Assembly (NCBI RefSeq): GCF_000165425.1
Contig: NW_001799322.1
Coordinates: 411,909-475,908 of the forward strand
Length of the DNA stretch: 64,000 nt
DNA from: Paramecium tetraurelia
Lineage: Eukaryota; Ciliophora; Oligohymenophorea; Peniculida; Parameciidae
Reading direction: 5' to 3'
A model generated the notes under the pieces. It saw nothing but the letters and a program-made list of their open reading frames with translations, made no database searches and was not told the origin of the DNA. Shown here piece by piece: positions 9,361 to 38,906 of the stretch. Every line of letters starts with the position of its first letter. The first letter of the stretch is position 1. Made by a program: the position numbers and the translations under genes.

Positions 9361-9492
9361 GATTTATTATTTAAGCAATTCTTATTAATGGTTGAATAAG
9401 TCTATATAATTTAGTAAGTCACTGTAGTTTTGTAATTGTTTAATTTGAAATAAGTCTTTTGGATATTAATTAAATATATATATATTAATAAA

Positions 9493-9923
9493 ATGTCCAA
9501 TAATACTGTGTTGTAAAAGTTTTTATAGAACAATCCATTCATAGAAGGAATTGTATTAATGGATAAAGAAGGAATAGAGTAAGAAATTTAGAGAAACTTA
9601 GAATTATAGGAGCATTCTAAAATGAAAATAACAAGTTGAGAACAGGAGCATAATCATTGATGTATGTGGTGGCTATTCAATAATGCAATGAAAATTTAAG
9701 AAAACTTTCTGATTCTGAAACAAAACAAATTACATTAGTTTATGAGTATTGAATGGTTTGTAAACTTAGTGAATGGATTCTATATTTCGAAATTTGGAGC
9801 CATTCAATTTTGATATTTTATTGCAATGTCAAAGCAAATATTGTGTCATTAAAATAACTTGGACAGGAATTAAAGCGCATACTTTCGCCTTATAATGATT
9901 TATTAGAAAAATAGTAAAAATGA
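9493..9923 (+). CDS. Roadblock/LC7-like small protein
   Basis: About 127 aa, introns 9579-9601 (23 nt) and 9746-9769 (24 nt). The pattern FIEGIVLMDKEGIEIIGAF near the N-terminus, a helix, a beta-rich middle (LVYDEWILYFEIWSHSILIFYC) and a final helix with LGQELKRILSPYNDLL has the length and order of a roadblock/LC7 fold, as in dynein light chains and Ragulator subunits such as LAMTOR3. Sequence identity to any one subgroup is low by eye, so the subgroup is open. It lies 24 bp upstream of the next gene on the same strand. Confidence 0.55.
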
Positions 9924-9947
9924 ATTAAATATATTAAATCATATATA

Positions 9948-10769
9948 ATGTCATTGTCATTAAGAACATTTATTTTGATATGTTTGATATTTGTAGGATA
10001 TTGCAAAGAGTCAGGTGAAAAGCATCTTACAATTCTAACCCAGTCAATCGGATCTATGTTGGTGTCGGAAATTGGAGACAAAGTATATCAATATTTTGAG
10101 TTCAAAATAGACATTCTTCTTGGCAGCAATTTTGTCAATGAAGTTCAATAGAGTGGCAGTATTCGCTGGGGCTGGAGGAGCTTTGGTATTGATGACAGCA
10201 ATAAGTTGCGCTTTCGGTATTATAGTTCCAAGTCTTCTCCCTCGATTTTATACAGCAATTGTGGTGACAATTATATTTTACTTCTTTGGAGCGAAATTAC
10301 TTTATGAATGGTATCATATGGAGAACGAAGGGGATAAGGAAGAATTGAAATAAGTAGAAATGGAGCTCGAAGAATTAGACAAGAAACTGCTGAGCAGTCA
10401 CAAAATTATAGATCCTGAAAATCCATCAGAAGCACAAAAAACAAGTAATTATTAGAATTTAATTCAGATTTGGCTGCTGTTGTGCCATTATAATAAATAG
10501 TATGGTAAGCATTTATCATGACATTTTTGGGAGAATGGGGTGATAGAAGTTAGATAACTACCATCAGTTTGGCAGCTGTTTAGGATGCAGATATTGTTTT
10601 TCTAGGTTGCAGTTTAGGCCATCTAATTTGTACTACTATTGCTGTAATTGGAGGAAAACTATTAGCACATTCAATCTCCGAGAAGACTGTTAATTTGGCT
10701 GGAGGAATAGTTTTTATCGTATTTGGTTTGATGCATACTTACGCTTTAATTACGGGCGATTTAGATTGA
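9948..10769 (+). CDS. GDT1/TMEM165 (UPF0016) Ca2+/Mn2+ transporter
   Basis: About 256 aa, introns 10083-10110 (28 nt) and 10445-10467 (23 nt). An N-terminal hydrophobic signal (MSLSLRTFILICLIFVGYC) precedes two copies of the family motif E-x-G-D-(K/R)-(T/S): SEIGDKTFFLAAILSMK near residue 42 and GEWGDRSQITTISLAA in the second half. The order of about six to seven membrane helices with an acidic/basic cytosolic loop between the halves (EMELEELDKK) is standard for the family. These proteins exchange Ca2+/Mn2+ for H+ in the Golgi and support glycosylation. Confidence 0.93.
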
Positions 10770-10979
10770 TAAATATACAATATATAGATAACAATTTAAA
10801 TGATTCTTCTTCTTTCTAAAATTTTATTTATAATCCAAAGCAAAAGATATTATTCTCAAATAATAGGTGCAAATAGCTTAATTTAATTGTGGCTCTATGG
10901 GAACAGAGTGACAATTATAATAGTTTATAAAACTTGAATTGTTTATAAAAAAAAAAGAAATCTTATTTTTAAATAAATA
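10770..10979. other. Intergenic spacer before ribosomal P0
   Basis: About 210 bp between same-strand genes, AT-rich; presumably the P0 promoter. No element recognised. Confidence 0.5.
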
Positions 10980-12027
10980 ATGGGAAAGAAGGAAACAAAA
11001 GATAAAAAGCCTGCTTAATTCAAGTAAATCATTTGTTAATTCCTATTAGAAAGATCTATGAGTTGTTATCAAAATACTCCCAAGTGATTATAGTTGGATT
11101 AGCTAATGTTGGATCCAAATAAGTTTAAGACATTAGAAGAATTTTGGCAAAGAGAAATGCACTTCTAGTCATTGGAAAGAATGTATTAAGTCATTTCTAT
11201 ATTTAGACATTGTTTAAGAAAGTTTTGGCAACAAGAGTGTAAGATTTACCAGAAGGCCATGAATATTATGAAGATTTGAAGAAATTCGGAGCTGCAATTA
11301 AAGAATTAGATGTCCTAAAGAATTAAGTTGCTGGCAAAGTAGGATTCGTATTCACCGATACACCTGTATTCGATCTTAAATCTGTCATTGAAGAAAATAA
11401 GGTTGAAACACCAGCCAGAGTAGGAGCTGTTGCTCCAATTGATGTTGTTATTCCTCCTGGTCCCACTGGTATGGATCCAGCTTCAATTCAATTCTTCCAC
11501 GCATTACAAATACCAACCAAAATTGAAAAAGGATAAATCTAAATCACCAAAGACTTTGTGGTTTTGAAAACAGGATAAAAAGTAGGTTAATCATAAGCTG
11601 TTTTATTATAAAAATTGGGAAAGAAACCATTTTTATATGGTATGGAAGTATTGGCTTGTTATGATAATGGATCTATTTTGAATAAATAATAAGTATCCGT
11701 TAATTTGAATGATGTTCTTGCTAAATTCTAAAAGAATGTGACAAACATTTCTGCAATCTCATTGGCTAATGGTATTTTGATATATTCATATTTTTAGGTT
11801 GGGTGAATGAGTCTTCAGCTCCACATTTGTTGGCTAATGCTTTCAAGGATTTGGCTGCTATTGGATTGCAATCAGGATTTATTTTTGATCAAATTAAACA
11901 ATCCAATGCTCCAGCTACAACCAAGGCTCCAGTTGCTGCAAAGGTTGAGGATAAACCAGCTTAATAAGCTCCAGCAAAGGCGGAAGAACCTGAAGAAGAT
12001 GTTGATATGGGTGGCTTATTCGATTGA
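10980..12027 (+). CDS. 60S acidic ribosomal protein P0 (uL10)
   Basis: About 331 aa, introns 11024-11049 and 11772-11797 (both 26 nt). The RNA-binding N-terminus (IYELLSKYSQVIIVGLANVGS, DIRRILAKRNALLVIGKNV) and FTDTPVFDLKSVIE are followed by VIPPGPTGMDPASI. The C-terminus ends with Ala-rich hinge APAKAEEPEEDVDMGGLFD, the variant of the conserved P-stalk tail (usually ...DMGFGLFD) that binds elongation factors. This is the base of the ribosomal P-stalk, where P1/P2 dimers attach. Confidence 0.96.
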
Positions 12028-12060
12028 TAAAGTATAGTATAAATAATAATATAAAATAAA

Positions 12061-13233
12061 ATGAGTTTATTAGAGAAATTTCTTTTAATTCCAAATGATC
12101 TATCAAGTCCTCGATTATTTGCTGTGAGTTAAAAATGGTATCTTTTATATAAATGCAATTTATAGGTTTGAGTAATTTCAGGATGAATTATATTGCTCAA
12201 TTTCGAATTTCACTTAGATAGATAACTATTCTCTCTGGTAACTCAATCATTAAGCGTTATAGTATTTGTTAGGAAGAATCACAACAATTATAAGGCTTGA
12301 TTGCAAATTTCTAAACTGAGTTCAACATCAATCCTCAAATAATTAAATAAAATTCGTAAGAGTAAGTTCTCAAGGCAGATAAACATTACCAGGTCCAATT
12401 CGTGTGCTCAGAAATATGGAATTTCCTGATGCAACACATCTAAGGAGGTTTTTATTATCATTATTCTTCTATAGGACCTTGTTTGCCAATTTACACAATA
12501 GAAATACATAATATCAAAAAAAGTACTATTTATGACTTTACATTTCTGTCACAACACGATATCGAATAATTACCAAATCATCTCGTAATACCAGTAGACA
12601 TGACTTAAATGGAGTTCTTGATTTAAAATGAAGATGATTCTTTTACATACCTAACCAAAGTTGTTCCTTTGGCTTTTACAGTCGATTAAGTTATAAATAA
12701 GATACTGTCATCACAATTCAATATATCAAATTATTTGTGCTTTAATTAAACAAGTAAAAAGATTATATTAAATAAAAATTCAACTTTAATCTATGAATTA
12801 GAGTTCAAATCTCTCTGGTTTTTTAAACCCAACAAGAGAGACATTGGATTTTAAGAAAATTTTGATGAAATTACAATGTAGCAGGATTTCCAAAATCTCA
12901 TTACTGGTTCAACAGAATCGACTTTTGAATCAAGGGAAATCCAATCAATATTAGACAGCAGTTCAAAATCACACGAATTCGAAGATGATATCAACAATTT
13001 GAGTATTGCACTTTTATAATTATATAGTGTTGAGAGATATTAATGAATTCAAAAACGAAATCGAAACCATTCTCTAATATCATAAAAAATAACCTCTTAC
13101 ATTACTAAAAGAAGAACAAGCCATTGAAAATATAAATCAAATAATCTTATAGATTGAATAGGAAAACTGTTTCAAAAAAGAGCAACAAGAAGAAGGAACT
13201 AATGATGAACTTATCGATTATTAGGATATTTGA
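12061..13233 (+). CDS. DUSP-domain protein without USP catalytic domain
   Basis: About 364 aa, introns 12138-12165 (28 nt), 12238-12262 and 13003-13027 (25 nt). The N-terminal third matches a DUSP domain: FAVSQKWFEQFQDELY, TQIDNYSL, then KHYQVQFVCSEIWNFLMQHI, GGFYYHYSS and LPIYTIEIHNIK. DUSP domains usually sit in ubiquitin-specific proteases, but the Cys and His boxes of a USP are absent. The remainder is Ser/Gln/Glu-rich with a helical C-terminus (EFKNEIETILQYH, NINQIILQIEQEN). Probably a non-catalytic interaction protein of the ubiquitin system; lies 12 bp from the converging SUMO-ligase gene. Confidence 0.72.
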
Positions 13234-13245
13234 TTTCATTATAAG

Positions 13246-14841
13246 TCAGTCAGTTTTAATTTGTTTCTTTATTCTATCATTCATTTAATATTGATTCTTA
13301 AGACGTTGATTGCACAATTCCCTTAGGACCAAATCTGATATCTCTCCATTCTCATTGAATTCCACCTCTTTATTCGATAAACTATTCTCAGAAATCAATT
13401 CCAAAATCACTTGTTAATAGTCATCAATTAAAAATTTGAAACATTTCAATTTGCAAATAGGGCATTTCCAAATCTTTTTGTCCCTTTGATCATCGATAGC
13501 AGTTATAAAATTCTCCAAATCAAAGCACTGAAGATGATTACAAAATCTACCTCTGGCTGGAATATTAATTAATTGTAAAGTTATAGGACATAATAGACTG
13601 ATTTTTATTGATTTTATTTTGACATCCTTGTTAGTAGAGCATTCTTATTTGAATAATTTGAATGAATCTTCAATACTTAAATAGTTTTTATGATATTGCT
13701 TTATATCCAATAAGAATTCTTTGGCATTCAATTGATTAATCGAGAATATACCTATAAAATAAATACACTAATGTTAAATTCTAAATTATTTTTTCAATTC
13801 CTCATTAGATTTGTATTCGATTAAAGTAATACGATTCTATTCATTATGTTTGATATGATTCGTAATATTAATGGAATCATCTTTTCGTTTCTTAACACTA
13901 TAATTGATGCTTAAGGGTTTGAACTCAGCCAATTTGACTCCATTCATCTACAATTCCCCATAATCAGGCCAAGTAATTTCATTTAATCCATCCTTCCCAT
14001 CTATTCTTAAACATCTAATCTCTATTTGAGATCCCTTGTGTTTTACAGGACAATTGAATAAGAAATGCTTCTCATTTTTGAATTGAAGAAACTATTGAAA
14101 TGTAGATTGAACTATCTAATCGATCACTTTGTTTTGAGGGTTTAGCATTACAAGAGTACAATATGGACAAATAAAATCTTGAATGTCATGATTGATTTGC
14201 AAACAAAAACCATGAAAATTCTATGAACAAATTTTGCATTGTAGAACTTTGGAGGTATTTAATTTAGCCTTGATTTGAACATACAAACCAGGTTAAGAGT
14301 GACAATAACATTTCAGAAAGTTAACATCTTATTGTGTTTCATTTTATTTATCATTATTCGATTGAGAATTTCTCAATTAATTTAATAATTGTTGTTCTTT
14401 ATCCTTAATGAGTTTTAACCTATCACGAATGCCTTCATAATAGATATGAATTTGTTTATTAATAAATTTTGTTAGTTCTTCTAAAATTGAGTAAGATTTG
14501 ATGATCTTGTCTTCATAATAAAACATAGTGATCGTAATCAATTGTCCTAAATATATAGGTCTTGTTGGATTAATATTAGTAGATTATAAACTGCATTTCT
14601 TCATTCTGAGCAGATGACTGAGTAAACATTCAGTTAATTTTGGGATGAATTGTTTATCCTATTTATATTTAATACCACCAAGACACTTAATGATATCCTG
14701 CTTTTTTTACGTCGAAATTTAGTCAACTTTCAACTCAAGACAACCTTGTCTAATGAATTCAGGAACTTTTAGTTCAATGTCTTATTTGATTGTTAAGAGT
14801 TCCTTAGTTATTTCATCTTGAAGTTAATTATTTTAGTTCAT
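13246..14841 (-). CDS. SIZ/PIAS-type SUMO E3 ligase (PHD, PINIT, SP-RING)
   Basis: 531 aa, one uninterrupted frame. The N-terminal part has helical segments; a PHD finger follows with the Cys/His order CYCHSQ...LQCKICSQNFHGFC...FICPYC. Next is a PINIT-like region (FLFNCPVKHKGSQIEIRCLR, WPDYGELQMNGVK, KPLSINYSVKKRKDDSINIT), then the SP-RING: ISLLCPITLQLINIPARGRF, CNHLQCFDLENFI, WKCPICK. PHD + PINIT + SP-RING is the plant SIZ1 / PIAS architecture. It transfers SUMO from Ubc9 to nuclear substrates. Start chosen as MNQNNQLQDEITKE, 45 bp from the divergent Pelota start. Confidence 0.9.
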
Positions 14842-14885
14842 ATTTTAAATTATTCTACAGAATTTAATAAAGAAATTAATTTTTA

Positions 14886-15735
14886 ATGAAAATTTTAAGC
14901 AAGAATATAATAAAAGGAGTTGGATTCATAATTAGTACCTAAAGAAGATAATGATTTTTGGCATTTGTATAATTTATTTTCTGTTGGAGATATCACAAAG
15001 ACAAGCACAGATAGGAAGATAATAAAAAAAAGGGATTTTAATGCGATTGATTAATTTAAATTGGTACTAAAGTATCTGAGAAAAGAAGAATATTTGTATT
15101 TTTAAAGGTTTATGAAATTAATTATTGGGCAGATCAATATCTATTATTATCAATAAAGGGTAGGAATTGCTAAGAATCTCATTGGTTATCTTTGGGTTAG
15201 TTTCACACCTACGAAGTTGAATTGTATTAATAAATAGATATATAATTCGAAAACTGGGATAGATTTCATTATGCAATATTGGATTAGATAAAACAATGAT
15301 AAACTTCATCAGAAGTGGCAGTATCAATAATGAAGGAAGAAGTTGGTCACATATGATTAATAGGATCAGCTATTACTAGATTGAAGTAAAAGAAGAAGAG
15401 AAGCGCTAATGAGTAAAGAGAAAAGAAAATGGAAGAGTTTTTAAAACATGTTTTGCAGCCTTGGAATAAGATTCGTTATTTGAATAAGTAAAACATTTGA
15501 TAGTGGCATCTCCAGGGTAGTAGTACTGATTATAGTGTAAATTTTTAAAGGATAATTTATATTTATTTCTGAAAAATACAGTTTTAGAAGGAGGAGAAGT
15601 ATAAGGAAAATAGAAAATGTTAGATAAGATCTTTCTGGTAAAATCAAGTTTGGCTATTGGAATGGTTTAATGGAAACTTCATAGGATCAATAAGTATAGC
15701 AAAGATTAGAAAATACAAATAAAATATTTGAATGT
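14886..15735 (+). pseudogene. Pelota/Dom34-like gene, disrupted and truncated
   Basis: Homology to the ribosome-rescue factor Pelota is clear in pieces: MKILSKNIIK, then in a frame shifted by one base LVPKEDNDFWHLYNLFSVGD, KGRNCQESHWLSLGQFHTYE, FENWDRFHYAILDQIKQ, SSEVAVSIMKEEVGHI, and LFEQVKHLIVASPG. Some joins are natural introns (15113-15137 region, and one of about 23 nt near 15413-15435), but two lesions remain: a one-base shift at an A run near 14915, and an in-frame TGA at about 15352 where relatives have Cys. After the VASPG block only about 50 residues are weakly similar and the eRF1-like C-terminal domain is missing. Could be a pseudogene or a badly assembled gene. Confidence 0.65.
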
Positions 15736-15769
15736 TAATATACAATTATATAGATAAAAATATAACATC

Positions 15770-17967
15770 TCATCTTCTGCTATAAGGATACTTCTTTCTG
15801 GCTTTATACAAACCAAGCTTCTTTCTTTCCACTTATCTACTATCAGTTCTGGTTAACAGTAACTTTCTGAATATTTTCTTGATACTTGGACACATTTTAA
15901 CAATGGCTCTACTCAAAGCTGAGCAGATACATTGAGATTATGCTGACTAACTACCTCCTCTGATTACACTAATGTTTACAATAAGATTATTACACATTCA
16001 CATCCACTAAACATGAAAGATGAGCCAATTCTAATACTCTCAAGGCTGTTCTTCTGTATATTGGATGAGTAAAGTAATTGATTAAGTTCTTACCATTTAC
16101 AGTCACTTCTCCTACTCCTTTCTTGAGTTACACATAACAAATTGATGACTTTCTTCTTCCTCTTCCCACATAATAAAGTAGAGAAGATTCACTATAATCT
16201 TTTTCTATTAATTAATCAATTTAGATTGCACTCTTCTCCTTGAAATCCTCAATCTTAACTTCTTCTTCAACTACATCCTCAAAATCTGGATCTACATCAT
16301 CAGCCATCATAGCTGTGCTTGGTACTTCATAAGTATATGGATTTATGTTGTCACTAAAAGCTTACAATCCATCATTAATTTATTCTCTATTTAATTTGAA
16401 TATATTTGTTAAATAATGGTGGAAGAATTCCAAATTGCTTGGCTGTTGGAATTCTTTGTATAATTCAACTGAAAATTGATACTCATCTTTTTTCACTTCA
16501 TCTACCTTCTCCTCAAAGAATTCCTTAACACTAACATATAATAATTCAATACTGTCTATTATAGGGTTGTTTCTTGATGTCCACAAAGGTATCTTGCTAT
16601 TTGTTGAGCTTGACTTTAGGGAAGATAGTCTAAAATGAAGACCCAAAATCTTTCCAAAACAGACTTTGTCCTTTATTCTTCTCGACATCTTAAAACACAG
16701 ATTCGTACCCCTTAATCTTATTTTTTGGATCATTATACAAATCCTTTATGAATTTAGGTGCACCTAATAACAAAAAGTCAATATTGTCAACAATATCCTA
16801 TAATTTGACAGGATCTACGATTCTTTAATTAATTTTCTTGGCTTTCATTTGAAGTTACAAAGATTAAGTATCTAGATTCTTGAGGTATTTATGTATTTAT
16901 TTGAATTCCCAATTTTATTGATCTTTAGCATTTATTTACTTTTTTGATTCTTTAGGATCTTATTATTTATTGGCTAATCTTTTCAAATATGCTCGTTTAA
17001 CAAAATTTAAATTAACCTTATCTATAATTGACTATTCAGTTTATAAAGCCTCTTGACCATCAGAGGGTCTGATATATCTCATTTTTAATAATCGCTCATC
17101 ATCTGATATTTCTTCAACAGTGCATCCAGATTCATAGAAATCAAGATCTTTTAGATATGCTTTTCCAAACGTGAGTTATTGATTTTTATCATTATATTTA
17201 GGGTCATAAATTTAAAAATCTTCTAAATCCTTTTACAAATTTTCTCTTGCCATCTCTTCAGCTACTGCTTTCACAGAATTAGTATCTACGTATTTATTTA
17301 GAATTGCTTCATCGTTAATTTTCTTATCAAAATCTTAAGCATCATCACCTAAAATTTTCTTTCTTTCCTCCTCTGGCAATTTTTTTATTCCTTCTAAAAA
17401 TCTATCGAAAACAACTTTTCTTGCTTTAGCAATATATTCTGGTGCTTCACTTTTAACCAACAAATCTTGAGAAGTTCTTAGAAGTTCAGTTTCTGACATT
17501 ACTCTCTAAATACTTAAATTATACATATACCATTTAAGATAACAATCCTTATACTTTGCGATTGTATTCTGCCTCATATTGTTGTCCTCTCTTCAGCTTG
17601 ATATCATAAACAAAATCATCGAAAAATAATCCTAAAGGACAATTGGTCTCTTCATCAATGTAGACATGTTTCAATACATTTTATATTAAATCTTAGCCAT
17701 TTTTTTAATACGATTCCTATTTATCTTCCTCTTTAGGCTGCATTTCTCTCACACGTCTAAGTTTAACTAATTTAGATACTGTGTCACTCTGCTTTTAATT
17801 TTTGCCAATTTCTTCTTATAGACTGCATGCAATTGCTTTTGAGAATCATCATAGGAAGTAATCTTAGGTCTATAAGCCAAGTCCTCCTTTTCTGGATACA
17901 AGGGAGGTACAACGAAGAAATTTCGTTGTGCTACGCAGAACCTCAGTCTGCTCACCAATCTGAGCAT
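15770..17967 (-). CDS. Mitochondrial ribosomal protein uS9 with very long N-terminal extension
   Basis: About 700 aa. It starts with an arginine-rich mitochondrial presequence (MLRLVSRLRFCVAQRNFFVV). Introns at 17757-17779 (23 nt), 17506-17530 (25 nt), 15969-15993 (25 nt), and one more between about 16590 and 16680 whose exact borders I could not fix (22- or 31-nt options both keep frame). Only the last ~150 residues are uS9: YVGRGRRKSSICYVQLKKG, GEVTVNGKNLINYF, VVIRGGSQSAQSQCI, LTRTDSRQVERKKLGLYKAR, ending KYPYSRR. The 550-residue extension is charged, with no known domain. Such oversize proteins are typical of ciliate mitoribosomes. Confidence 0.82.
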
Positions 17968-18048: not shown

Positions 18049-21000
18049 ATGCGAATACCCTAAGCTTACTATGAAAGCATGATGAAAAGATACAAGAAGT
18101 CTAAGCATGTCGATTAAACTGATTATTCTTGGATTGAAACTACCAAGAAACCTCTTGTAGAAAGAATTTAAGATTTTGCATAATGCAAACAATTATAAGA
18201 TCCCAAGTATACTCGAATCATTTGTGAAACAATTGATGCAATATTTGAAGCAGCAGTTGCCTTATTTCAAGAGCAAGACTAAACTCTCTGCGTTCAATTA
18301 CTGGGTGAATCCGATTCTATTTAAATTTGGGATTTGTGTATTTAGTGTTGTGATTATATAATCAAATCAGCAAATCCAAAAATAAGTATTTCTATTTCAA
18401 TAATCCAAAGTCGATATGTTTTTTAGTTATGATCATATTTTGATACTTCTATTTCACAATCCAGATTATGAAATGTCAAACTATATATAAATTGGTGTAA
18501 TGCATGCAATATTTGATTGAATAAATGAATTCATCCAAAGCCTGCAAATTTAAAAGTAATATATCAGACAATAAATATTAGTTGAACAATTCGAAAGAGT
18601 CTTTTTAAGATTTATGTACATTAACACATTTTTATAAAAGAATATTTACAATTTGTCAGATTAGGAATGTTAGGAATTATTTTAATATTAGACTGACAAT
18701 TACAATCTCAAAATCACCATCCCAAATGAAGATATGAATATTTATCAAAGATACTTGGAGATGAGCAATTTCAGAAAAATACTCAAATCTCCACCTGTAA
18801 TCTTAGACATTCCTTTTGATTATACAAAAAATCCCTTGGATTAAAGTTTACAGATTGCAGCTGAAATCAAAGTCTAAAAAGATAGCATACTATTTGATTA
18901 GATCTTTATTCGATTACTTTGCTAATATTCCAATAATGATGAACAAATACTATAGAAATTGTTCATCAACAATTACATTTTTCATTTTAAATGCACTTTC
19001 TAGGATTTATAACTATTTAACAACAAATATATGGCAGACATTACGAATAGGTTGATAGATCAAAAGGACTTCTTATTTTTATTAATAAGGATGATCGCAA
19101 GCAATAAAGAGTATCCTCTAGAGGAATCTTTAGAGGATACTCTAGTGGATAGTCTCCAATTTATTAAATCAAAGCAAATACAACTCTATGAACACAATAC
19201 CTTCTTGGATAAATTATGGCTATTTGAATTATAGGGAATTTAAGACACTTTAGTCTGGTGGAAGAAGGAACTCAATATTAGTGAAGGCAACTTCTATGAT
19301 AATAGAATGAAGTTAAATGTTAAGTTGGAACAATTATTCTTCTAATCATTATCAGATTCACAATTTACATAGATGTTTAAGAAATAACCCAATTATACCT
19401 AATGGAATTTCATAATCATTCAAATTATCAGAAAGTCCTTTGAATAGGTTGAAGAAACAAAATTGCCATACTATATCTTAAATCCCATCCTAAGTTATTG
19501 TATCAATTTGATCACTGAATTGCCAGGCAATAATCAAAACCAATAATTAGATTATCAATTAGAAAGTCAGATAATTTAAGGCTTAGTAGAGATTCTTAAG
19601 AAATGTAATAAGAAACCATAAATTGAATTATAAATCAGAGCATTTCAATTATTAAATTAATTAGTTACATACTATAAACAAGAATTTGATTAAGTTTAGA
19701 TTCAAAATGCTTAATCTGAATTCCTGATGCCAGTTCCAGAGAGATATCACAAATTACTTGCAGAAATTTGGTCAAACAGAATTTTGGAAGATACTTTAAA
19801 AGGTGCCAAACCCAATGAAATATTATTTACCCATCTAATAACCTTATTAGCAATAACAATGGGAGAGAATCCAGCCAGAGTAAGATAATTTTACGAAAAT
19901 AATAGTTTATAAGATCTGACCAATAAAATTATTGAATTACTAAGGACTTGCTCAAGAGCATCTCCTTTAATTGTAACGATAATAAACTTATTGATTGCAA
20001 TCAGTACAAATGAATAAGCAATATCGTCAGCCTTACAATCTAATAATAATGGTGATTCATAATAATAGGAGAATTTGATCAAGAGGATCTTTATTAAGTG
20101 TTATTTGCCCTCAGCAGAATTATTACACGATCCAACAGTGAGTGATGATTTTGCAAAGAAGATTATTATGCTGTATAGCCAAAGTATGTTGGCAAAAAAG
20201 TTGATAGAAAAAGTGATTGAAAATACATTTGTTTAGATATCATAATTAGTGGATTTGAGTAAAGATAAGATAGAGGAAATAGTTAGTAATTAGGAAAAGT
20301 TACAATCCTTTTATAGTTATTCCAAAAGTTTACAAGCTTTATTGCAGTTATTTATGCAATTACAACCAGAGAAAAAATCATCATATCGATCATTCCAAGG
20401 ATACGAAGAATTGTAATTAGAAGAAGCTTAGAGATAAAAAGATTTATTGTTCAATTCACTTTTGAAGAATTAAAAATTCGTTGAAGCATTAGAGAAAATA
20501 ATAATGAGTCCAATACTGATAGGTAGTAAAAACAAAGATACATATGTTGAACATTATGTTGGCATCCTATGTAAGAAAAACAAGTTAAATCCCTATAATT
20601 CTTTGTGGAAGGAATTGGATTTGATCTCATAAAACTATATGGTCATAGGTGATCAGAAGATTATCGATATCGGAAAATTAGTTGATTATGAAGCTTTATC
20701 CATTCATATGAGCGACAAATATTTTTTTAGAAAAATCATCAAACACATCTCCCCTTAAACTTATAGGGGATTCTACATACTTAGTCGTTTCCATTTGATT
20801 CATTATTTGATCAAGATGTGTGTCAGTTAGGGTGTGGGATAAAATTAAGATTCTCATCTGATGATTTCCTAATTGTTAGAAATCTATTTTCTATCCTCAT
20901 AACATGCAGGTTTTCATGAATCCATTATGATGTTTATGTCTGCTAAATAATAGATACAGAAATAACAGACTACTTATGATGAGGACAATTAAATAAGGAG

Positions 21001-24000
21001 AAGGATTAGCAAGGATAATTTGATTCCATTATAATCATCTTGTTTGGATTTGATAGGTAAATTGCAATAACAAGTTGAGTAAAAGGACTATGTAATTAAA
21101 AAATATGGGGAAATTACTTAGTTGTTCTTCCAGAATTTCTAAGAAAAATGCTAATAAATTAGATAAGCTCAAGGAGTTTAAATTATATCGATTGTAACCT
21201 ATATGCAGGATATGTTAAAATCATTCAAATTTTTATAGAATTTATTTTTGAGTTTAGAATAACAATATCAGCCATTACAATTTGCAGTAATCTGTTTCCA
21301 AAATAGTAATTTCTTTTTGTAATTAATTGAGATTCTATAATATTTGGATAGTATCTAAAGACAACAATAATTCAATGCAACAAAAGAATAAGAGATTACT
21401 AGAAAGATATTGCCAGGATTTATAGAAGCAATACATCAACATATAGATAGCATAATAAAATTACTAATTTTTAAGAAGATTGCTATTGATAAAATATAGT
21501 TGTCTGGGTAATTAATTTAAGATCCATAACAACTGGATATAGTGTGCGATGAAATCTTTGTATCCTAAGCATCAATACTCAATTAAATGATCGATTTACT
21601 GCTCTACAATAATTGTGAAGGTAATTTAAAGACTCTTTTGGAACAATTAATATAGAAGTTTTATTCAATCAAGGATTTATAAGTTTAAGAGATGAGAAAG
21701 GTTGCTGGAACAGAAACAAAAGAATAATAAGTAGTTGGAAATAAGGATATCTCCTAAATCTTATCCGGAAATGAAGTACGTTAAGAATAAAAGAAGTCTA
21801 TGTTTGACAGACCTGAGATCAAAGCAATGATTGATGATATTTGTGATATGGGATTCAAATAACAATTGATCAAGAAAGCCATCTAAAGAATTGAAATTCC
21901 AGAACCTACAATGATTATTGATATGCTAATAAACGAAAGGATTTCTGATGATGAAGAAGAGTAAGAAGATCTTTTTGATCAAGCATAAAAAATAGCTGAG
22001 CAAAATCAAATAATTTAGGATCAAATTGCTTAATAAAAGTTAAAAATGGAGAATGAATTAGAAAAAGAGTAAAAGTAAAATGAAATCCAAGTCTTAGATT
22101 AAGAGTAATTTATTAAAATATTACAACAAAATTTTCTCTAAGCTAATCAATAATTAAATATTTTGGAAAGATTTTTGGCATTAATTAATGATTTCTAAGT
22201 TAAATTAGATTCTAACCTCAATAAACTATTAGATTAATAATTGAATAATTAAAAGGCAAATACTAATTTATTAGAATATCTATTCACAATAGCTAAGAAA
22301 TAATAACATATAAACAAGATTTTAGATTATATTTTTATGATCTTGAATCCCTTAAAAAAAGAAAAATCCTCTTAGGATTTGAATACAACTATGCTTCAGT
22401 ATCAAAAAGCCTTACAATGGCTTAACTTATTATAATAGATTGCTCCCCAGGAACATGAAAAATTATATCAGAATTTGGCTTTAATAGATCAAGAACCATA
22501 ATAAAAACATGTGCTATCATTTCAGTCTATGATTACATTTGGTTTTGCATTGTCTGACGATATATTTGAACAGTTTAAAAAGAGTGGTGATATAGAATTG
22601 TAATAATTAAAGTAACTAAATATTTCTGATATGTCTTATTAGGACATATTTAGTCAAGTATAAAACTTCACTGCTAATCTTAACAATTTATATGAAAACA
22701 AATAAACTACATTAAAATTATTCTGTAAAGAAATTTTAGAGGCACAAAAATATCTTACTAAGTTTTTCTTGAATTTATAAAACAAACATGATCAATTAAT
22801 AGAAAGATATTGGAGCTAAATACTTATCTATCTTGAATTTTTGATTTAAGTAGGTACAATGAATTTTGATTTGTAAGAGTCAACTCAGCAAACCTATAAT
22901 TTACTTGAAGAATTGGATACATAAATTAATAATAATTAAGTATTGAAAGAACAAAGAGATTAATCTCAAAATATGATTTACATGAGATAGGTAATTTAGA
23001 GAAGATTTATGTCTGATAAACAGTTGATTGCATAATTATTATAATGCTTGAATAATTTTGGATTGCATAATCAAAACAAATTGTTCAATATGTTAACAAA
23101 AAAATCATCAAGTGACAAGTTATCATTATTGGAGATTCTATTACAATTAAAAATGCATCCTTGTCATTTCGAATATGAAGAATCCTAGCCAGTCTTCATT
23201 GAAAACCTAATATACCTTGTTGCCATTGATACGAAAACAACGAATGACTTAATTTTCTAAATTTTGAAATAGGTAATGCTGAATGAACATATCGATTGGC
23301 ATGCTTAATAATTAAAAAATACAGAGGATCTCGCCCAAATTTTATTCCCATAGAAATTTATTGAATGCCCATTGTAATACTTATTGCAATTTCATCCCGT
23401 CCTAATTAACAATCCTATTATCTATAATTTGATAATTGAACAATAAGGTTTATCTATTACAGACAAATATTCTGAACTAAATAGAATTCACACTCCAAAA
23501 TAACTTTAACCTTAACCAACAGGAAAACTGACAAAAGAATAGGAGAGATTGTTGAAAGAGAAGGAAAAAGAATAGCAAGCTCAACCTTAGACAGAAATAG
23601 TCATCAGATACGAGATAGATTAATTGATAGAACCTTAATTAAACGAAAACTTCATTTATTTAGTTAAATTTATTGCCTAAGCAACCATTGATAGGTTTTT
23701 TGAGGAGAATTAAAGATTGATAGAATAGATATTTAAAGTGCAATTCAACCAATACAAAGATGATCCTAGGATGTACGTCTATGGTTGGGATCAACTATTG
23801 AGAATAATAGAAATGCTCATCATTAAAGTTCCTTAATTAATATTATATCTAAGATAATTGTAAGTAGATTTGCCACCACAATTAAGCAAAGGCGAGAAAA
23901 AGACTACTTTCATAGAATTTGTAGTTAAGTATTTGACTTGGGTTGGTGGAGATAAATTAGCTAACTTTATGCACAATTACTTGAGTGATATAAATTTGTT

Positions 24001-27000
24001 GTCTATTGGATATGGAGTCACTATAGGCTAAGAAGTTTTGCAATTATTATTGAACGAATTATAAATTGACATTCATCAGGATTAGATGGTCTAGAAATAT
24101 TATCATATCATGTAAATATTGATACTGTTTACTTAAACTTTAACTATGCAAAATTGCAGCATGATCTTAACCGATCAAAGATCATAATTGAATATAATCC
24201 CTTAATTGATTGACACATTGAATTAAATTAAAAATTGTGATAACAGGCAATTTGTGAAGACATATCAACAAACCATAGCCAAAGTTATTGAACCTTTCTT
24301 GCAATCTTAAATATATTATGATCACATTAAAAATGGAAAGTATGGAGAAGTATTCAGACTACAACAAAGTATTACTGATGATCCTTTTAAATATCACTAT
24401 TTGCATTGTCTAAGAAATCAATTGATTTGTTACTCTCTCTACCCAGGTTTCAAGAGTGTAGCAGGATCAGCTTAACATTTTATTTCTCACTAATAAGTTC
24501 AATAGACTTTAAAGGATGAACACTAATAAGAATTGGTTTGGCCACTTTATCAATCTAGAAAAAATTACAATAATTAAAGGTAGAATAATTAGAAGCAATA
24601 AGAAGAGGATGTGAGCGATTCTGATTCAGATCAAGATATTCTTTAAGTAGATAACAGTCAAATAAAATACAAAGTAAATTATACAAATATTAATTCTTGG
24701 GGTTCTGATTATTATTATTATGACAATAATGACTTCATGTCAAAATACAGCATGAACAGAGATGATGATAGGATGTTACGAGATAATTAATAGAATATAT
24801 TCCCATAGAAAGATCTCAATATCATATTTTGCAAAGTTGATCCCCAGTCCATTTGTTTCAATTTACCTACATTAACAATTACAAAATAGAATATTTAATA
24901 TTATTCCAATGATTATAAATAGTGGATAACTTCTATTGTAGGATTATATTACAGTTCAAATGAGTACTTTGAAAATAAAAAATCTTTAATTTCAAAATCA
25001 TTTGAAAATTCACTTAAAATTGCTGTTGAATTCATTCATCAAATAAATAGATTATTATTATCATCAAATTACTACCGAAATAAATAGAACGATTACATGC
25101 AATAATATTTATCATATTATTTGAATGGAACTCTAAATAGCCTCTAAGTTTAGGTAAGCAATTCTTGTTTCTATTCAAAATTTGGTTAACCTCCAAATTA
25201 GTTATAACAAGACTATTAAGCAAATTCATTATCAATCAATGTCAATGAGTCATAGCAATAATAACATAGAATTTTATGTTAAATATCATGTAACGTTCTC
25301 TAAAGCAGAGTAGTTTTGAATGGGATGCCAAATGATTTGCAGGATTAAAATTTACTTAGAGCAAAGTTGTAAAGTTTATTGCATCCTGAAGAACACCTTA
25401 TAATTCAACCAGTAATCTTGTAAATTCCAAAAAAATCATTCACATAGCCTGATACATAACAATTATAAATCTATGATAATGTGGTTCTTGAAATGTTCAT
25501 TAATCTCATTTTGGATACTAATAATTTTCCATAGTTTCCATTTAATTTGTTTAGATAGGTCAGTAAATGTTCTCGTCTTGGTTTCAAATTATTGATTTAA
25601 TTGTTACTCTTGTACTAAGAACAAAAAAATAGCTTAGATTTAACTTTAAAAATCTTATACCTTGTAAGTCAGAAAATTCCATCAACCAATCTTAGAGATT
25701 TGTTATCTGAATAGTTATAGTTGAGCCCAATTTTAAATAAAAGAGAAAAGGCAAATCTGGCTAAAGTCTAAGAAATTAAGGAACAATTTGTTATTGAAGA
25801 AGAAGAAAACTTTGAGGAACAACCTTAAGATGAGGATCCTGAAAATCCTCTTGTCTTTTTAATTAATTAGATCAATAGGTATTGCGAGAAAAACATCTCT
25901 TTCATAAAACTCTTTCATAATCCAGAATCCTATATACCATTAGAAAAAAGTATTATTAATATATATATTAGATATACTCTTGACTCCATTATTGGCTAAC
26001 TAAACTGGAATGCATTTATCTTACCTGATTTAAATTATCAAAGGCTCATTGATAGTTGCAAATGAAGAATCGAAGGATAAGAATAGAAAGAGTGATGATG
26101 ATTATTTATAAAAAATATAGAGAAGATAAGCTACAATCTTTACAAATTGCCAAGAAGAATCTAATGGTAAATTGTTTGACCTTGTTGCTTAACTCAATAA
26201 GCATGAAGAAGATATACATTTATAGGAATTGATTTTTAAGACATTTGCAGAAAGATATTCAGAAAATTCATAAGATCAATAATAGGAACCATAATCTTAT
26301 TATAGTAGACAGCCATTTTCTTTAAGACAAAATGAACTATTGTTCTAATAGCAATAATAATAACAATATGAATAAAAATAATAAGTATTATTATTATAAT
26401 TATAATAACAATAACAATAACAATAACAATAACAATAACAATAACAATAACAATAACAATAACAATAACAATAACAATAACAATAACAATAACAATAACA
26501 ATAACAATAACAATAACAATAACAATAACAATAACAATAACAATAACAATAACAATAACAATAACAATAACAATAACAATAACAATAACAATAACAATAA
26601 CAATAACAATAACAATAACAATAACAATAACAATAACAATAATAAGAATAAGAATAAGAATAGCAATAATAAGAATAACAATAAAATTAAAGTCTATAAA
26701 ATAATTCCATATTTTAAATCCCTTTGTTACCATAAACTTTACATGGTTTACCTCAAACACTCCCCACTAATGCTCCTCCTCAAATATCATCTATATCTAT
26801 TCTTTAGTAATAACATCAATAATTATAATAATACTAATAATAATTTTAAAGCAATTTGTAAAATATTAGAAAGTTGCCAACTTCTTAAGCTTAATTTTAG
26901 CAACTTAGATAGTTCTATGATAGGTTCCTTAAAGCTAATGATGATTAATAAGACCTTTAATAGACTTAATAATAAAATCTTAAGCAGTTTTATGATAATA

Positions 27001-30000
27001 TTTTACTATAGAAATAAAAATAACAAGGCTAATAATAGGATTAGAATCAATAATAATCAAATAATCTAGAATAAAAGATATAGTAATTATAAGATTAAAG
27101 CCAAATTATCTCTGAAGAATAAAACTGAATCAGATTCTAAGATACAATAACGAGAGAGAAAACTAAGTGCCAAGATATCCCATGTTGAAATAGATATTAT
27201 TACAGCATTGTGCAGAATTCTTAATAACCCTCTCCTTCGTGATTGTAACTCTCCAGAAATCATTAATATACTCAATTCATATTCAAATGATCGTTTAAAA
27301 ATAGAACATGCTATTAATGAATTAACTAAATATATCATCTAACAATCTAAGATATTCAATTATGAATTGGATAGGAAAAGAAAATAACTTAGAGAAATCA
27401 CAAGTTAACGAGAAAAGGTTCCAGTGCATGATCCTGAAAGATAATAGTAATTGTCTGAATAAGAAAATGAAATCATCAAAGAACTCAATTAGAAAACACC
27501 TGATCCTAGTGTAATTCAAAGATGTTTTATAGCTATTACAGGGTTTTTGAATTTTAATGTGAGTGCTTCCGAGTAATAAAAATAATCCACAATCAAACCA
27601 AACTCAACATAAACTAGATAATAAATTCAATTGGATAAAAAGAAATTTAAATTGCATTAATAAGGAAAGCATACAGATGATACACAAGAGGTTGATGCAT
27701 TAACAAAAAAAGACATCAGAAAATAATTTATTAATGTGTTGTAAACAAGATAAACTCACCATTTGTGGCTTAATGTTGTGGAAACATTGTTATTAATTTT
27801 TAATTGTAAAGGTCATAGATCACTAGAGTTATTATAAAAAAAACTATACCCGTTATTGGAATGTTTCCTCAGACTTTATTAAAATGTACATGAAGATACA
27901 AATAATTAAGATTCTCATGTATAAGGTGCTGCAGATGCTAACTTTTTTGAGCGTAATACAAGTGGATCAGCTACTAATTCATTATCATTTGGTTTATTAT
28001 AAACATAGAATATTCATTTAAAAAGGTCATTTTCTGCAGTGAGAAACGAAAATGAAATGTAAATGAAAATTGATGAGCTATTCACATATCTTTGTATTAA
28101 TGGAAAAAGTCTCATTAATCATCTAATTTCATAAAGGCTTCATTAAGTTACGATTGATCATAAATTAAATTAGAATCCAAATTTAATTAAGTTATTTAAA
28201 GACTCTGATCCTTTAGCTTTTGTTTTCTTTAAAATGAGTCAAATAGTATCCTTCGAAAATAAAAAGCATTTGTTTGAATTGGATTTAGATGCTCTTAAAA
28301 TAGGTGAAAAACCTAACACGCGATCGAGAGGCAGATAAAATGATACTATTGAGATTAATGTAGTTAGAGAGACAAGACTATAGCAATCTTTGGAAAAAGT
28401 TATTAATATTGATAAGAGCAAGTTTAGAAAATGTGATATCAAAATTAGATATTAAGGAGAAAGAGGTTAAGATGAGGGAGGTATTAGAAAGGAGTGGATG
28501 ACTAATCTTGTTAAAGATATCTTATAAACAGATAAATTTGAATTAACAACAAAAAGATTCTACAAAATTAATCCAAATAAAAAAGCTTAAGAAGATTTGA
28601 ATCATTACAAACTATTAGGTAAAATAATTGGCAAAAGTATTTATGATGGATTACTTTTGCCAGTGTATTTCATCTCTCCAATTTTCAAGCAAAATACTTT
28701 AGAAAAAAACCTAGCATTGATGAATCTTGAACATTATAATGAAGGTTATTTATGATACCTTTTATTAAATTTTTAAATGATGAAACTTAGGTTTAATATA
28801 AAGATTTATTTGAAATTTTGGATACCTGAAGAATATGCAAATCTGATCGAATTAAAATAAAAAGCTAATTTTTGCTGACCTTCTTTAGGATTATATAGAA
28901 AAGAATCCTATTGATTTAAAATAAGAAAAATAAACTGAATAATAGTAAGTTTAAAATTATAAATAAGAACTCAAATAAAGTTAGCAATAAGATTAACCGA
29001 AATCATAGTAATAGGACCAGCAATAATAATAATAAGAATTGTAATAGTAATAGGAATAAAAATAATTATAATAAGAATAATAAGAATAATAATAATAAGT
29101 ATAATAAATATAATAATAAGAATAATAATAATAATAGAAATAAAAAGAATAATAATAATAGGAATAAAAAGAATAATCGGAAGAATAATAAGAATAGGAG
29201 ATATAAAAGTAAGTATAAGAATAATCTGAGTTATAATATCAAAAATATCAATAAATAGTTGAAGAATTATAGAAAGAATAATTATACATATAATAATAAT
29301 AATAGCAAATATTGGATTAATATATTGTAAAAGAAGCAGAAAATTTATAATAAATGAAAGAGAACCCATTATAATAAAAATATTAGGACTTTCAAGAAAA
29401 TGAATCCTTATTAGAAATAAATTTAGAATAATTTGAATAATAATAATTATTATTATATCTCTAATAACAGTAAGAATAAACAATTGCACTTTCAAAAATC
29501 ATTGAGGTATCATAAGAATCTCAATAAAAATTTGATTAGTAAGAGAAATAAGTGAAAGATTAATTTTTAGGATCTGAAATGAAACCTCCAATAATTCAAG
29601 TTGAACAACAACAAAATGGAAAAAAAGAAATACAAATTAAGAAGCTTCCTGAAGATATAACAGCAGAAGATATGGAAAATAGGGAGAGGAAACGACTTAT
29701 TAGAAAGAATAAAAAAAAATAACTAAACGATGAAGTGTTAAAACATATTAAATTATAAGATGTCTTTGAAAAATAAACTACAAATGTATCAATAAAACAC
29801 AAAAGATTAATTTGTGAATATATTAGCAAAAAAATTATGCTAGAAGAGATTAATACATAGTTGTAGGCATTAAGAGAAGGATTTTTTGATATTTTACCAA
29901 AAGAGTTTTTCTCTTATATGGATTGGAGAGATCTTTAAAAACTAATTATAGGAGTTCCTTCAGTTGATGGTATTGAATTTTGTTATTTAATTTTAGTTGA

Positions 30001-30366
30001 TGATTTACAAGAAAATACAGAATATATAAGTGATGAAAAGACTAATTAAACAGTTTTATGGTTTTGGGAGGTTTTGACAACCTTAAGCGACTCTGAAAAG
30101 GCTGATTTCTTAATGTTTGCAACAGGAAGTCCTTTAGTTCCATTTGGAGGATTTAAGAATTTAAGAGGTCCAAATGGTCCAAGAAAATTTTCGATTTCAA
30201 AAGACTTCAATAAAGAACATTTTATTAAGGCTCATGCATGGTATAAATTTTAATTATAGCTAGCTTTAATCGAATTGATTTACCAGAATACTCCTCTAAA
30301 GAAATACTAAGAGAGAAATTGCTAAAATCTTTGAAGGAATCCGGTTCAGGATTTGATTTAAGTTGA
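18049..30366 (+). CDS. Giant HUWE1/TOM1-like HECT ubiquitin ligase
   Basis: About 12.3 kb, roughly 4,000 residues. The N-terminus (MRIPQAYYESMMKRYKKSK) leads into long helical-repeat sequence typical of the DUF908/DUF913 armadillo region. A UBA-like domain lies near 21790-21960 (PEIKAMIDDICDMGFKQQLI). Acidic linkers, an 81-Gln tract (26403-26645) and Gln-rich segments follow. The HECT domain runs from about 28200 (FKMSQIVSFENKKHLF, ERGQDEGGIRKEWM, LLGKIIGKSIYDGLLLPVYF) to the end (FLMFATGSPLVPFGGFKNLR, HACFNRIDLPEYSS, FDLS). The catalytic Cys codon is split by a 23-nt intron (30241-30263). Several internal introns are unresolved, and frames break near 18520, 27100 and 28750-28880, so the model is a locus outline, not an exact CDS. 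Confidence 0.85.
19108..19143. repeat. Perfect 13-bp inverted repeat, 10-nt loop
   Basis: Arms AGAGTATCCTCTA (19108-19120) and TAGAGGATACTCT (19131-19143). It lies within the HECT coding region, encoding acidic EYPLEESLEDTL. May be chance from acidic codon use or a hairpin-forming site. Confidence 0.8.
26403..26645 (+). repeat. (CAATAA)n microsatellite encoding 81 consecutive Gln
   Basis: Perfect 6-bp repeat of about 40 units. In the frame of the HECT gene every codon is CAA or TAA, both Gln in this code, giving 81 uninterrupted glutamines, flanked by mixed Gln/Glu codons. Read in the standard code the same DNA gives poly-Asn or poly-Leu, or poly-Ile/Val on the other strand; those are artefacts. 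Confidence 0.92.
28920..29480 (+). repeat. Imperfect TAA/GAA-rich low-complexity segment (Gln/Glu-rich insert in HECT)
   Basis: Dense runs of TAATAATAG, GAATAA and AAATAA units. In the frame that leads into the HECT C-lobe it reads Gln/Glu/Lys-rich (QQQELQQQQEQKQLQQEQQ and similar) for roughly 180 residues. It lies between the HECT N-lobe block (LLLPVYFISPIFKQ) and the segment KRLICEYISKKIMLEE. Confidence 0.75.
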
Positions 30367-35182: not shown

Positions 35183-35929
35183 ATGTATTAAATAATAATC
35201 AGTAATTAAATTAACTTATTTGTATATTAATTATAATCAAGGAACGTATTTGATAATCAAAAGCTAATTTCTCAACACATATCGTTTGATATCGCTTTAA
35301 TATAATTTGTTTATACTAACTTTTTAAAAGTTGGTGTAATTGCAATTTAATAGCCTTTGAAACTAATAATAATTCATCACAAATAGAATGAATCTAATTA
35401 GAATATTAATAAATGAACCTGAAAAAAATGAATAATAAAACTCTAAGAAAAATTAACTGATTGAACATAATTTATTAAAGAAGTGTATTAATTAAAAATT
35501 TTATAATATATTTTATAAAACTACGACTTACTATTTACTATTTATTCCTAATATATTATTATTTACAAATTTTTCTAGTTTGTAAATCTAAAATGTAAAA
35601 ATCCAACAAAGGTTATAAATCATTATCTAAGATGAATTAAAAAATGAGGTCAAAAAGTTATGATGAAATCAAAATGCAAAATTTTGATTTCATAATAATA
35701 CATAGATAACCTTCAATTTGAATACTCGCTATAATATTAGTCATAAAGAACTTTAAGGGATAATTTAAAAATTACTTTTTACTATTCAAAGTGGTAAATA
35801 CTTATAGTTAATGAGAGAATGATTGAAGAAATGATCTTATTGAATGGTAACCGAACTAGAGTTGCATTTATATGAATTGCTATTTCATATTGATTAAATA
35901 TATCATAATATAAATAATACAATTAAGAA
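35183..35929. other. Divergent intergenic region
   Basis: About 750 bp between the 5' ends of the membrane-protein gene and the kinesin. Very AT-rich, no recognisable gene or motif. Confidence 0.5.
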
Positions 35930-38906
35930 ATGACAACTACTCCGAGTGTTAGAAGTCGAAAGTGGTTTGAAGACGTAAAAGGAGAGTTATTGATGCCAAT
36001 AGTCAGAATTAAGCCAGCCACCAATTTTTAGAGAGAAGATTTAAGAATTAACAATCAAAATATTATATTAACAGATCCAAACAATAGAATTTTAGAAGAA
36101 TTTGAAGTTCCAGAAGCATACGGTCAAGAAGTGGGCCTTGAATAAATATATAATGAAAGAGTGGCTCCTTTGATTTAATAATTTATATAGGGTTTCAATG
36201 TGAATGTTTTTGCATATGGTTCTACAGGTGCAGGAAAATCATAAACAATAGAGGGAAATAAGAAAGAAAAAGGTATAGTTACACTTTGGGCGAGTACTTT
36301 ATTTGCATATTTGTAAGATAAGGTAGTATAAACATACAAAGAAGATAGTATAATTGCTGATTATAAGTATGAAGTGAGGATGTAATATTTGGAAATTTTA
36401 GATGAAAATATAATGGACTTATGTGCTGATAGAAAATTTGGAGAAAGGTTATTTGTTGAAGATCATCCTTGGGATGGTCCAGTTGTTTAAGGAGCATCTT
36501 GGCATGAAATTACAAAAGACACTGATTTAAATGATCGTTTATATAAAGGATTAAAAAGTAGAGATAATACTAGTAATGAATTTGGTAAAGTAAGTGCAAA
36601 GGCTACATCATTATTTATAATTGATCTTAAATAATGGTTCTCAAATAAAGACACTTAAGAAATGATGTTGCTTAAAAGTTAGGCAACATTTGCTGATTTG
36701 CCAGGAAGTGAAATATTGGTAGATGATGCAGAAACTATAAGAGTAAAACAAGGATCAACACTAAATAAAGTAATCATTGCATTTACCTAATTAATAAAAG
36801 ATTTAGCCAATAGGTAAGAGGATTATGTAATGTATGATACATCTACTGTAACTAAATTAGGTAAAGAAATATATGGAAGTAATTCATATAATATTGGAAT
36901 ATTTTGTTGTTAGCATGGTGATCCAAAAGGGTCTTCCTTAACATTATAAGTCTTTAAATAAGCCCGTAAAATAATGACTTACCCTGTTATAAATAACCAT
37001 AGAGTCATAGCACTATTAAGATAGTTTAGATTAGAGGCTGCCTCTAGTAATTAAGTAGGGAAAAAGAAAGATACTCCAGTTGCCTCAGGAGATTCAGTTG
37101 GAGTTTAAGAGTTGCTTGATTTAAAAAGCAAAGTCAATGATTATGCTAAATAGATAGCTGATATGGATGATGAGATTACAGATTTGAAATCAAAATTATC
37201 AGCTTTAAGAGCAAGGTTCTAAGAATTAGTTAAATAAAAGGTAGAGCTACAAGATGAATTGATCAAGGCTGAAGAGGATAAAATAGAATCTGCAAAGGCC
37301 TTATTGGATATGGAATTGTAGAACACGAAATTACAAGAGTTGATTATTTAGATTTAATCAGAAAATAATACCAAAAAATTGAATGATGAAAATATCTCAG
37401 ATGATGTTAGACTACAAAAAGCATAGTAGATTATTCAAGAATTACAAGATAGATTAAGAGAAACAATAGATGAAAAGAGGGAATTTGAAATGGAATTTAT
37501 GGCATTAAAAAAGAATTACATGGATAAACTGAAAGAATTGGAAAATATAAGGCTATAATAAGAAAATTACAGTCTTGAACTTATTAATTTGGGTAATGAG
37601 AATAAAGCACTTTAAGAGGAAATATCTAAATTGTATTAGTCAGATGGTTAAACAAATGAGCAAACTAAAATGATGTAAGAAAAACTAAAAACAATGACTG
37701 ATGATCTGAGAGACAAAAGAGAAGCACTTGAATTTGCTAAAGCTGAAATTGAAAGGTTGAAGGTTGAATTAATGAAGTATGGATTGTTAGGAGCCAAAGA
37801 TAAATTAGAACTTGATAAAAAGCGATTAGAACTTGATAAATCATCTACCTAAATTTAAGTAACTCAATCTCCCAATAATGATGATGCTTTTAAGAATGAA
37901 AGGATGCTATGGGAAAGCTAAAAAATGGAACTTACTCATAAAGTTAAATCCCTTTAGAGGAAAGTTAATGATGACAATGAAAGAATCAAAGATCTTGAAA
38001 AATAATTAAATGATTTAAATGGAGAAAATGTTAAAATGTAATTACAATTAGATGAAATGAGAGCCATTTATAGAAACAAATTGATTTAAATTCATAAATT
38101 AGATCCAAGAGATGAATTATTCTAAACTTATGCAGGCAAAGAAAGAGAATATTCATAATCCATTGAAATTCTGAGTAAAAAGAATAAATAACTACAAATC
38201 GAAATGCGTTCAATAAAAAGCTATTCTAGATAAATACGCTATTTGGCTGAGGATTGGGCACCAATTGGCTAACCTTTACCTGATATTTTACATAAAGGAT
38301 ATATGATACTTGATGAAAATGAACTCGTATTTATATTCTAACATATCATAGCATACTCAAGCATAAAAGGATCAAGAACAAGAGATCCAAAGACTCAGAA
38401 ACAAAAATCATATTTTAGAAGCAGAATTAATGAATCTGAAAGAAGCTAAGAAAATTGAAGATCCAAACAATGCCACCAAGAGACTCATCTCTGAAATCTA
38501 GTTATTAAAATAGAGTTAAGTCTCTGATAATAATAACATTAATGATTCTTCTCTAAGGAGAGAGAGAAATGACTTACAAGAAGAAAATAGAAGATTGGTA
38601 TAGTTATTGAAGGATTCCAATAAATGGGATCTTCATAAAATGTAATAAGATAATGAAAGACTATTGAAGATTGTTAAAGAATATGAGATGATTGGACCTC
38701 AATCTGGATAAAGTAAGAACGTTCAATAAAAAATCCAATTTTATGAATAACTTACTAAGCAATTGGAAAGGGAAAGAACTGAATTAGTTGTCAAAGCAAC
38801 AGTAGCAGAAGAATAATTAGTATAATTATAAGCAAGTATGACCAGAGTAGCAGTTGATTATTAAAAGCAAATAAATGAACTAAAGAAAAAACTAAAAGTA
38901 TTATGA
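35930..38906 (+). CDS. Divergent kinesin-like motor protein with long coiled coil
   Basis: 983 aa, one 25-nt intron at 38327-38351. The N-terminal motor domain has LMPIVRIKPATNF, then VNVFAYGSTGAGKSQTIEG (P-loop GSTGAGKS at about 97-104), the switch-I-like SNEFGKVSAKATSLF and switch-II-like ADLPGSE in place of DLAGSE near residue 256, and STLNKVIIAFTQLIKDLANR. The usual GQTGSGKT is GSTGAGKS, so ATP binding is likely kept. From about residue 400 on nearly everything is heptad-rich coiled coil (DDEITDLKSKLSALRARFQE and onward). The N-terminal motor suggests plus-end movement on axonemal or cortical microtubules (inference). Confidence 0.85.

Follow-up and report, generated by a model that had tools for sequence, protein, structure and literature searches.

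A CAATAA array read as polyglutamine in a giant HECT ligase gene of Paramecium tetraurelia: a probable coding microsatellite in a Gln-rich linker

The window analysed here, a stretch of 64,000 nucleotides of the Paramecium tetraurelia genome with a GC content of 25.7%, carries within a strongly constrained gene a run of 81 glutamines that contains no CAG and is built from a unit that can be coding in this frame only through a reassigned stop codon. This locus raises the question of how such a run comes into being, that is, whether its codons were chosen one by one or multiplied as a repeat of the DNA, and how far the surrounding protein accommodates it.

Codons of the tract and the repeat beneath them

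Two features define the tract:

26403..26645, + strand, 81-residue polyglutamine run (42 TAA and 39 CAA codons), from codon count and translation
26404..26637, + strand, perfect (AATAAC)x39 hexanucleotide array, from TRF and direct reading

The first-pass annotation had described 81 glutamines spelled by about 40 CAATAA units. The codon count returns exactly 81 consecutive Gln codons, all of them TAA or CAA and G being absent throughout, and the number of perfect units is 39; as had also been claimed, the gain or loss of six bases leaves the frame intact. The same core is readable as (TAACAA)x39 at 26406-26639, and the wider array around it (26347-26684) has the highest TRF score, 488, among the 11 rows obtained for the window. 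At its 3' edge the array degrades into TAA, GAA and TAG codons, a decay that resembles the edges of microsatellites.

If Gln codons were independent of one another, 78 strictly alternating TAA/CAA codons would have a log10 P of about -34, under either the published P. tetraurelia codon usage or the own usage of the HECT gene. The repeating unit is thus the DNA hexamer and not a codon choice made 81 times. Taken together, a perfect tandem unit in DNA and a polyglutamine whose reassigned stop codons (TAA/TAG) lie in the reading frame of a gene under constraint make it highly probable that the tract is a coding microsatellite.

Reading frame, gene model and constraint

The assignment of the tract to a protein depends on the following features:

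18049..30366, + strand, gene of the giant HECT ligase, with a read-through product of about 4,060 residues and the stop TGA at 30364-30366 (three-copy comparison); the start is the first Met common to the three copies and is a guess
25950..25971, + strand, 22-nt GTA...TAG intron (gene model; counterparts in both duplicates)

Two long open frames span the array, one reading it as poly-Gln (25725-27128) and the other as poly-Asn (26233-28755). A search with a 600-residue query finds three copies of the gene in the genome, namely the window copy (contig C170) and two duplicates on contigs C31 and C171, which show 84% and 68% amino-acid identity, respectively, over the N-terminal frame of about 2,500 residues. 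Both duplicates conserve the Gln frame before the tract and again after it, and the intron at 25950-25971, which shifts the upstream frame into the Gln frame, has counterparts of 22 nt in C31 and 25 nt in C171. Codon usage, very short introns and gene duplicates of this sort accord with the Paramecium aurelia group. On these grounds, sequence comparison confirms the Gln frame as the predicted coding frame of the window copy, and the earlier reading of TAA as Gln holds. In the read-through protein the 81 glutamines occupy approximately residues 2761-2841, and the HECT-like part begins at about residue 3,400.

The tract had also been placed in frame with an evident HECT ligase gene. The coding frame and the giant HECT gene hold; the direct continuity does not, since in the window copy as assembled a TGA at 27126-27128 ends the Gln frame before the HECT domain, whose pieces sit in the other two frames. 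Splicing does not restore a single open frame through the HECT domain of the assembled window copy. In this regard, comparison with both duplicates reveals, near 27.1 kb, a net shift of one base and, further on, the following cluster:

28696..28852, + strand, cluster of frame slips made up of six small insertions, 7 bases in total, that neither duplicate has (duplicate comparison)

The window model, unlike that of either duplicate, further requires a step of one base at 18,476, close to the N-terminus. C31 has a surplus base at the end of the exon that precedes a 25-nt intron (L012, about position 3816), and the gene model of C171 requires no frame step at all, its HECT domain included. An intron of 25 nt at 26987-27011, considered as a bridge over the slip near 27.1 kb, was rejected: the stretch codes for LKQFYDNI, which is kept in C31. 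In the gene models of both duplicates, the linker and the N-terminal half of the HECT domain form a single open exon.

These slips could be taken as signs of a dead gene, which the pattern of substitution makes unlikely. Between the window copy and C31, dN/dS is 0.067 over 2,402 codons upstream of the intron at 25950, 0.226 in the less constrained segment of 121 codons that separates intron from array, 0.069 over 515 codons 3' of the array and 0.097 for the second HECT part (104 codons); the comparison covers the gene without the C31 C-lobe, the C-terminal end of C31 being mis-modelled owing to its extra base, and the rejected intron at 26987-27011 does not enter its segments. Lineage-specific amino-acid changes are likewise split about evenly between the two copies: window-only and C31-only changes number 101 and 103 among 2,390 aligned positions upstream of the array, 9 and 9 among 110 positions from intron to array, 21 and 15 among 515 positions after the array, and 3 and 6 among 104 positions in the second HECT part. 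Past the array constraint is as strong as upstream (0.069 vs 0.067), which favours faulty sequence over a dead gene, and, judged against the duplicates, the insertions at 28,696-28,852 are probably such errors. The slips lower trust in the exact length of the array, not in its being coding.

The C-terminal part of the gene is described by four further features:

28546..30363, + strand, HECT domain in three matched pieces (28546-28857, 29783-30208 and 30265-30363; Pfam and related matches)
28910..29650, + strand, 247-residue Gln-rich insert (40% Gln) within the N-lobe of the HECT domain (three-copy comparison)
29970..29996, + strand, 27-nt intron, hidden because it preserves the frame (a 26-nt intron stands at the same place in C171)
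30241..30263, + strand, 23-nt intron splitting the presumed catalytic Cys codon (gene models)

Pfam PF00632 matches two of the window pieces, with 86 and 30.3 bits against a cut-off of 23.9. Once the short intron is spliced, the conserved segment HA-CFNRIDLP, whose Cys we take to be the catalytic Cys of HECT ligases, is present in the window copy and in C171. Each of the three copies has the N-lobe insert, which is 40-53% Gln and comprises 247 (window copy), 306 (C31) and 78 residues (C171); in the window copy it includes an imperfect AAT-type array at 29001-29225. Between the flanking matched HECT blocks, C171 has 157 residues vs 23 in NEDD4.

When a profile of the two duplicates is compared with PDB, the best matches are to the HECT chains of NEDD4 (7.6e-23), followed by HUWE1 (3.3e-20) and TOM1 (4.6e-14), and the TOM1 and some HUWE1 matches begin further N-terminal than those to NEDD4. 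Ligases of the HUWE1/TOM1/UPL1 type are characterized by the N-terminal domains DUF908/DUF913 and UBA. Our guess, from size and layout, is that this ligase is HUWE1/TOM1-like: it shares with those proteins a giant size (about 4,060 residues here, 4,374 in the HUWE1 chain 9plq_A) and a C-terminal HECT domain. It differs from them in that its best matches are NEDD4 HECT chains, in the Gln-rich insert within the HECT domain, and in that its N-terminal 2,455 residues have no Pfam match and no significant PDB match; the corresponding set from the three copies gave a single Pfam match, at E = 4 in one member, and searches of the N-terminal part against PDB, with the single sequence and with a profile, gave none at E up to 1.

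Pfam matches also identify neighbours of the ligase gene, at window positions 5166-16844, 35894-38458, 53232-55346 and 59978-61756. Among the 10 open frames queried are an HSF-type factor, ribosomal L10/P0, a MIZ/SP-RING protein and ribosomal S9, and further a kinesin with DUF4472 and two WD40 proteins.

Origin of the tract

The tract belongs to a longer Gln-rich segment that allows the three copies to be compared:

26316..27122, + strand, Gln-rich linker between the N-terminal and HECT parts (Gln frame, 267 codons); its end is approximate, given the frame slips near 27.1 kb

In the window copy the linker measures about 280 residues, with a Gln share of 56% over the 267 Gln-frame codons; in C31 it has 209 residues and 47% Gln, and in C171 128 residues and 41%. 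A model that treats 26987-27011 as an intron gives a window linker of 273 residues with 50% Gln. The longest Gln runs within it are 81 residues in the window copy, 32 in C31, where (TAA)26 stands at the tract site within the run, and 26 in C171, in which the tract site has no run and a TAA-rich one lies about 80 residues further on. A Gln-rich linker is thus common to the three copies, and the unit, site and length of the run are not. Synonymous divergence between the window copy and C31 is 0.65-1.2, depending on the segment. Since the array is perfect in spite of this divergence, it should not predate the split of the two copies and would be younger than their duplication.

The distribution of such units was surveyed with exact patterns of seven unit types in the 69 Mb genome. 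A six-unit CAATAA pattern occurs at four sites, with arrays of 39 (window), 19, 16 and 10 units; the reversed-pattern control is void for this unit, as it matched the same arrays. All four read as Gln in an open frame, and for the three arrays outside the window this frame is longer than the other two on the same strand (781, 276 and 499 codons, the frames of 781 and 499 codons being cut by the ends of the stretch examined). For exact (CAA)12, (CAG)12, (TAG)12, (TAATAG)6 and (CAATAG)6 the genome has no match, and exact (TAA)20 has 282 match positions; seven complete TAA arrays among the matches listed have 25-49 units, and a search of the genome for exact (TAA)50 found none. At 234 bp, the window array is the longest found genome-wide among the seven unit types. 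In each of the seven long TAA arrays that were read (that of C31 and six others) the Gln frame is open for at least 219 codons, but it exceeds the other five frames in just three of them; a general rule that long TAA arrays code for Gln is thus borne out only in part.

Two further observations concern individual loci. On contig C190 (L044) the 19-unit CAATAA array is followed without a break by a TAA array, both being read in one Gln frame. Loci L046 (C34) and L048 (C55) have TAA arrays of 41 and 33 units beside a similar flanking protein, EENL..QRQF.EQE...NTIIA, and are possibly another duplicate pair with parallel Gln runs.

These findings allow us to propose that replication slippage of the six-base CAATAA unit enlarged a spacer that was already Gln-rich, situated between the N-terminal part of about 2,700 residues and the C-terminal HECT domain and probably disordered. 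Because TAA is read as Gln, the AT-rich units TAA and CAATAA give pure polyglutamine in the Gln frame; as slippage units they would yield uninterrupted runs in this one frame, and these would be tolerated in the spacer. A different unit or site in each duplicate, together with a composition that is kept, would be explained if units containing TAA slip and the reading frame acts as a filter on the outcome. Slippage as the mutational step, the disorder of the linker and a near-neutral tolerance of length are what we infer from this pattern. In sum, we regard expansion by slippage of a TAA-containing unit, in a tolerant Gln-rich linker of a giant ligase, as very likely.

Among the alternatives, one supposes that the array is real and that its 39 units are overstated by the assembly, or vary among macronuclear copies. 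The length rests on one assembly with other local faults in the same gene, and the CAATAA array next in size has half as many units; the seven extra bases at six sites and the shift near 27.1 kb suggest low local quality, and the step required near the N-terminus and the extra base in C31 point the same way. The slips past the array are, however, events of one or two bases at a distance of 0.5-2.2 kb and not errors of the array itself, three further long CAATAA arrays exist in the genome, and a single Sanger or long read can cover 234 bp. Inflation of the length is, on balance, improbable.

Of similarly low probability is the notion that the run gives the ligase an element for coiled-coil or condensate formation and is kept long by selection. 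The Leu/Glu-rich Gln stretches of the flanks and a linker that remains at least 41% Gln in all three copies are in line with it, but selection on length sits poorly with a run whose site, unit and length vary from copy to copy (81, 32 and 26 residues, the last elsewhere).

The other readings are much weaker. The tract could lie in an unusually long intron from the GTA at 26385 to the TAG at 26663, as such borders are present and the 279 nt are a multiple of three, so that splicing would keep the frame. Such an intron would nonetheless be about ten times as long as the other modelled introns of the gene (22-27 nt), the last GT of C31 lies 47 bases before its TAA array, and an intron beginning there would take away residues conserved between the copies (QPFSFRQ-like). 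Size and the comparison with C31 rule it out for practical purposes.

Equally hard to sustain is the suggestion of the first-pass annotation that alternation of the codons keeps the DNA from being a pure CAA repeat and leaves the protein homopolymeric. The absence of exact (CAA)12 agrees with it, yet AT bias and codon usage could account equally well for this absence, and the alternation is itself a perfect hexanucleotide array, as repetitive as a trimer array would be. With (TAA)20 so frequent in the genome and (TAA)26 at the tract site of C31, repeats are evidently not avoided; units containing TAA are the ones that have grown. Finally, the poly-Asn (AAT-AAC) frame, in spite of its 840 open codons and the first HECT piece that it holds, has next to no chance of being the coding one and was rejected, since before about 27.1 kb it bears no likeness to the duplicates, both of which conserve the Gln frame.

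Comparison with known polyglutamine and repeat systems

Human polyglutamine disease tracts are encoded by CAG. The window tract resembles them as a long pure Gln run in a large protein, and differs from them in its CAATAA unit and in the absence of CAG from the run.

The trio of ligase genes suggests that TAA-type units may take over the role of CAG. By extension, and with a confidence that falls somewhat short of even, we would propose that reading TAA as Gln displaces expansion rather than preventing it: TAA and CAATAA would replace CAG as the source of the longest runs in the genome, and duplicated genes would regrow such runs independently and repeatedly in the same linker. If this is true, the three ligase copies are a natural experiment on AT-rich units as a source of polyglutamine, at a locus with two internal controls for asking whether TAA-type slippage drives the Gln-rich proteomes of ciliates and whether long polyglutamine is harmless.

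Perfect repeats in the coding DNA of AT-rich genomes, as found here, are on record for ciliates (PMC7285179, 2020) and for Dictyostelium, which combines a low base-substitution rate with frequent slippage that includes coding DNA (PMC7466956, 2020), as far as the portions of these articles considered here go. Table 3 of the ciliate simple-repeat survey counts glutamine as CAA/CAG only; Gln runs spelled with TAA, such as the present one, differ in having no row there. The locus exposes this as a blind spot of that part of the survey, in which TAA/TAG are not entered as glutamine (PMC7285179). Neither the gene nor its CAATAA polyglutamine tract is mentioned in the parts examined of PMC10942620, PMC7285179, PMC12147016, PMC7466956 and PMC10195154, and an earlier description in print is possible.

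That ciliates are rich in expanded Gln is already published, and what is added here is the trio of duplicates. According to the sections considered of PMC10942620 (eLife 2024), ciliates in which TAA/TAG encode Gln have massively more Gln-rich motifs, and polyglutamine expansion is usually linked to CAG repeats; the Gln codons of P. tetraurelia are given there as TAA 46.7%, CAA 27.9%, TAG 16.2% and CAG 6.3%, a usage that, in the authors' suggestion, may have coevolved to help avoid CAG slippage. The present locus resembles the ciliate proteins of those sections, among which Paramecium tetraurelia is listed, in its Gln runs and in TAA as the commonest Gln codon. The difference concerns slippage: in the same portion of PMC10942620 it is the slippage of CAG that codon usage may help to avoid, whereas here the units containing TAA themselves appear to have slipped.
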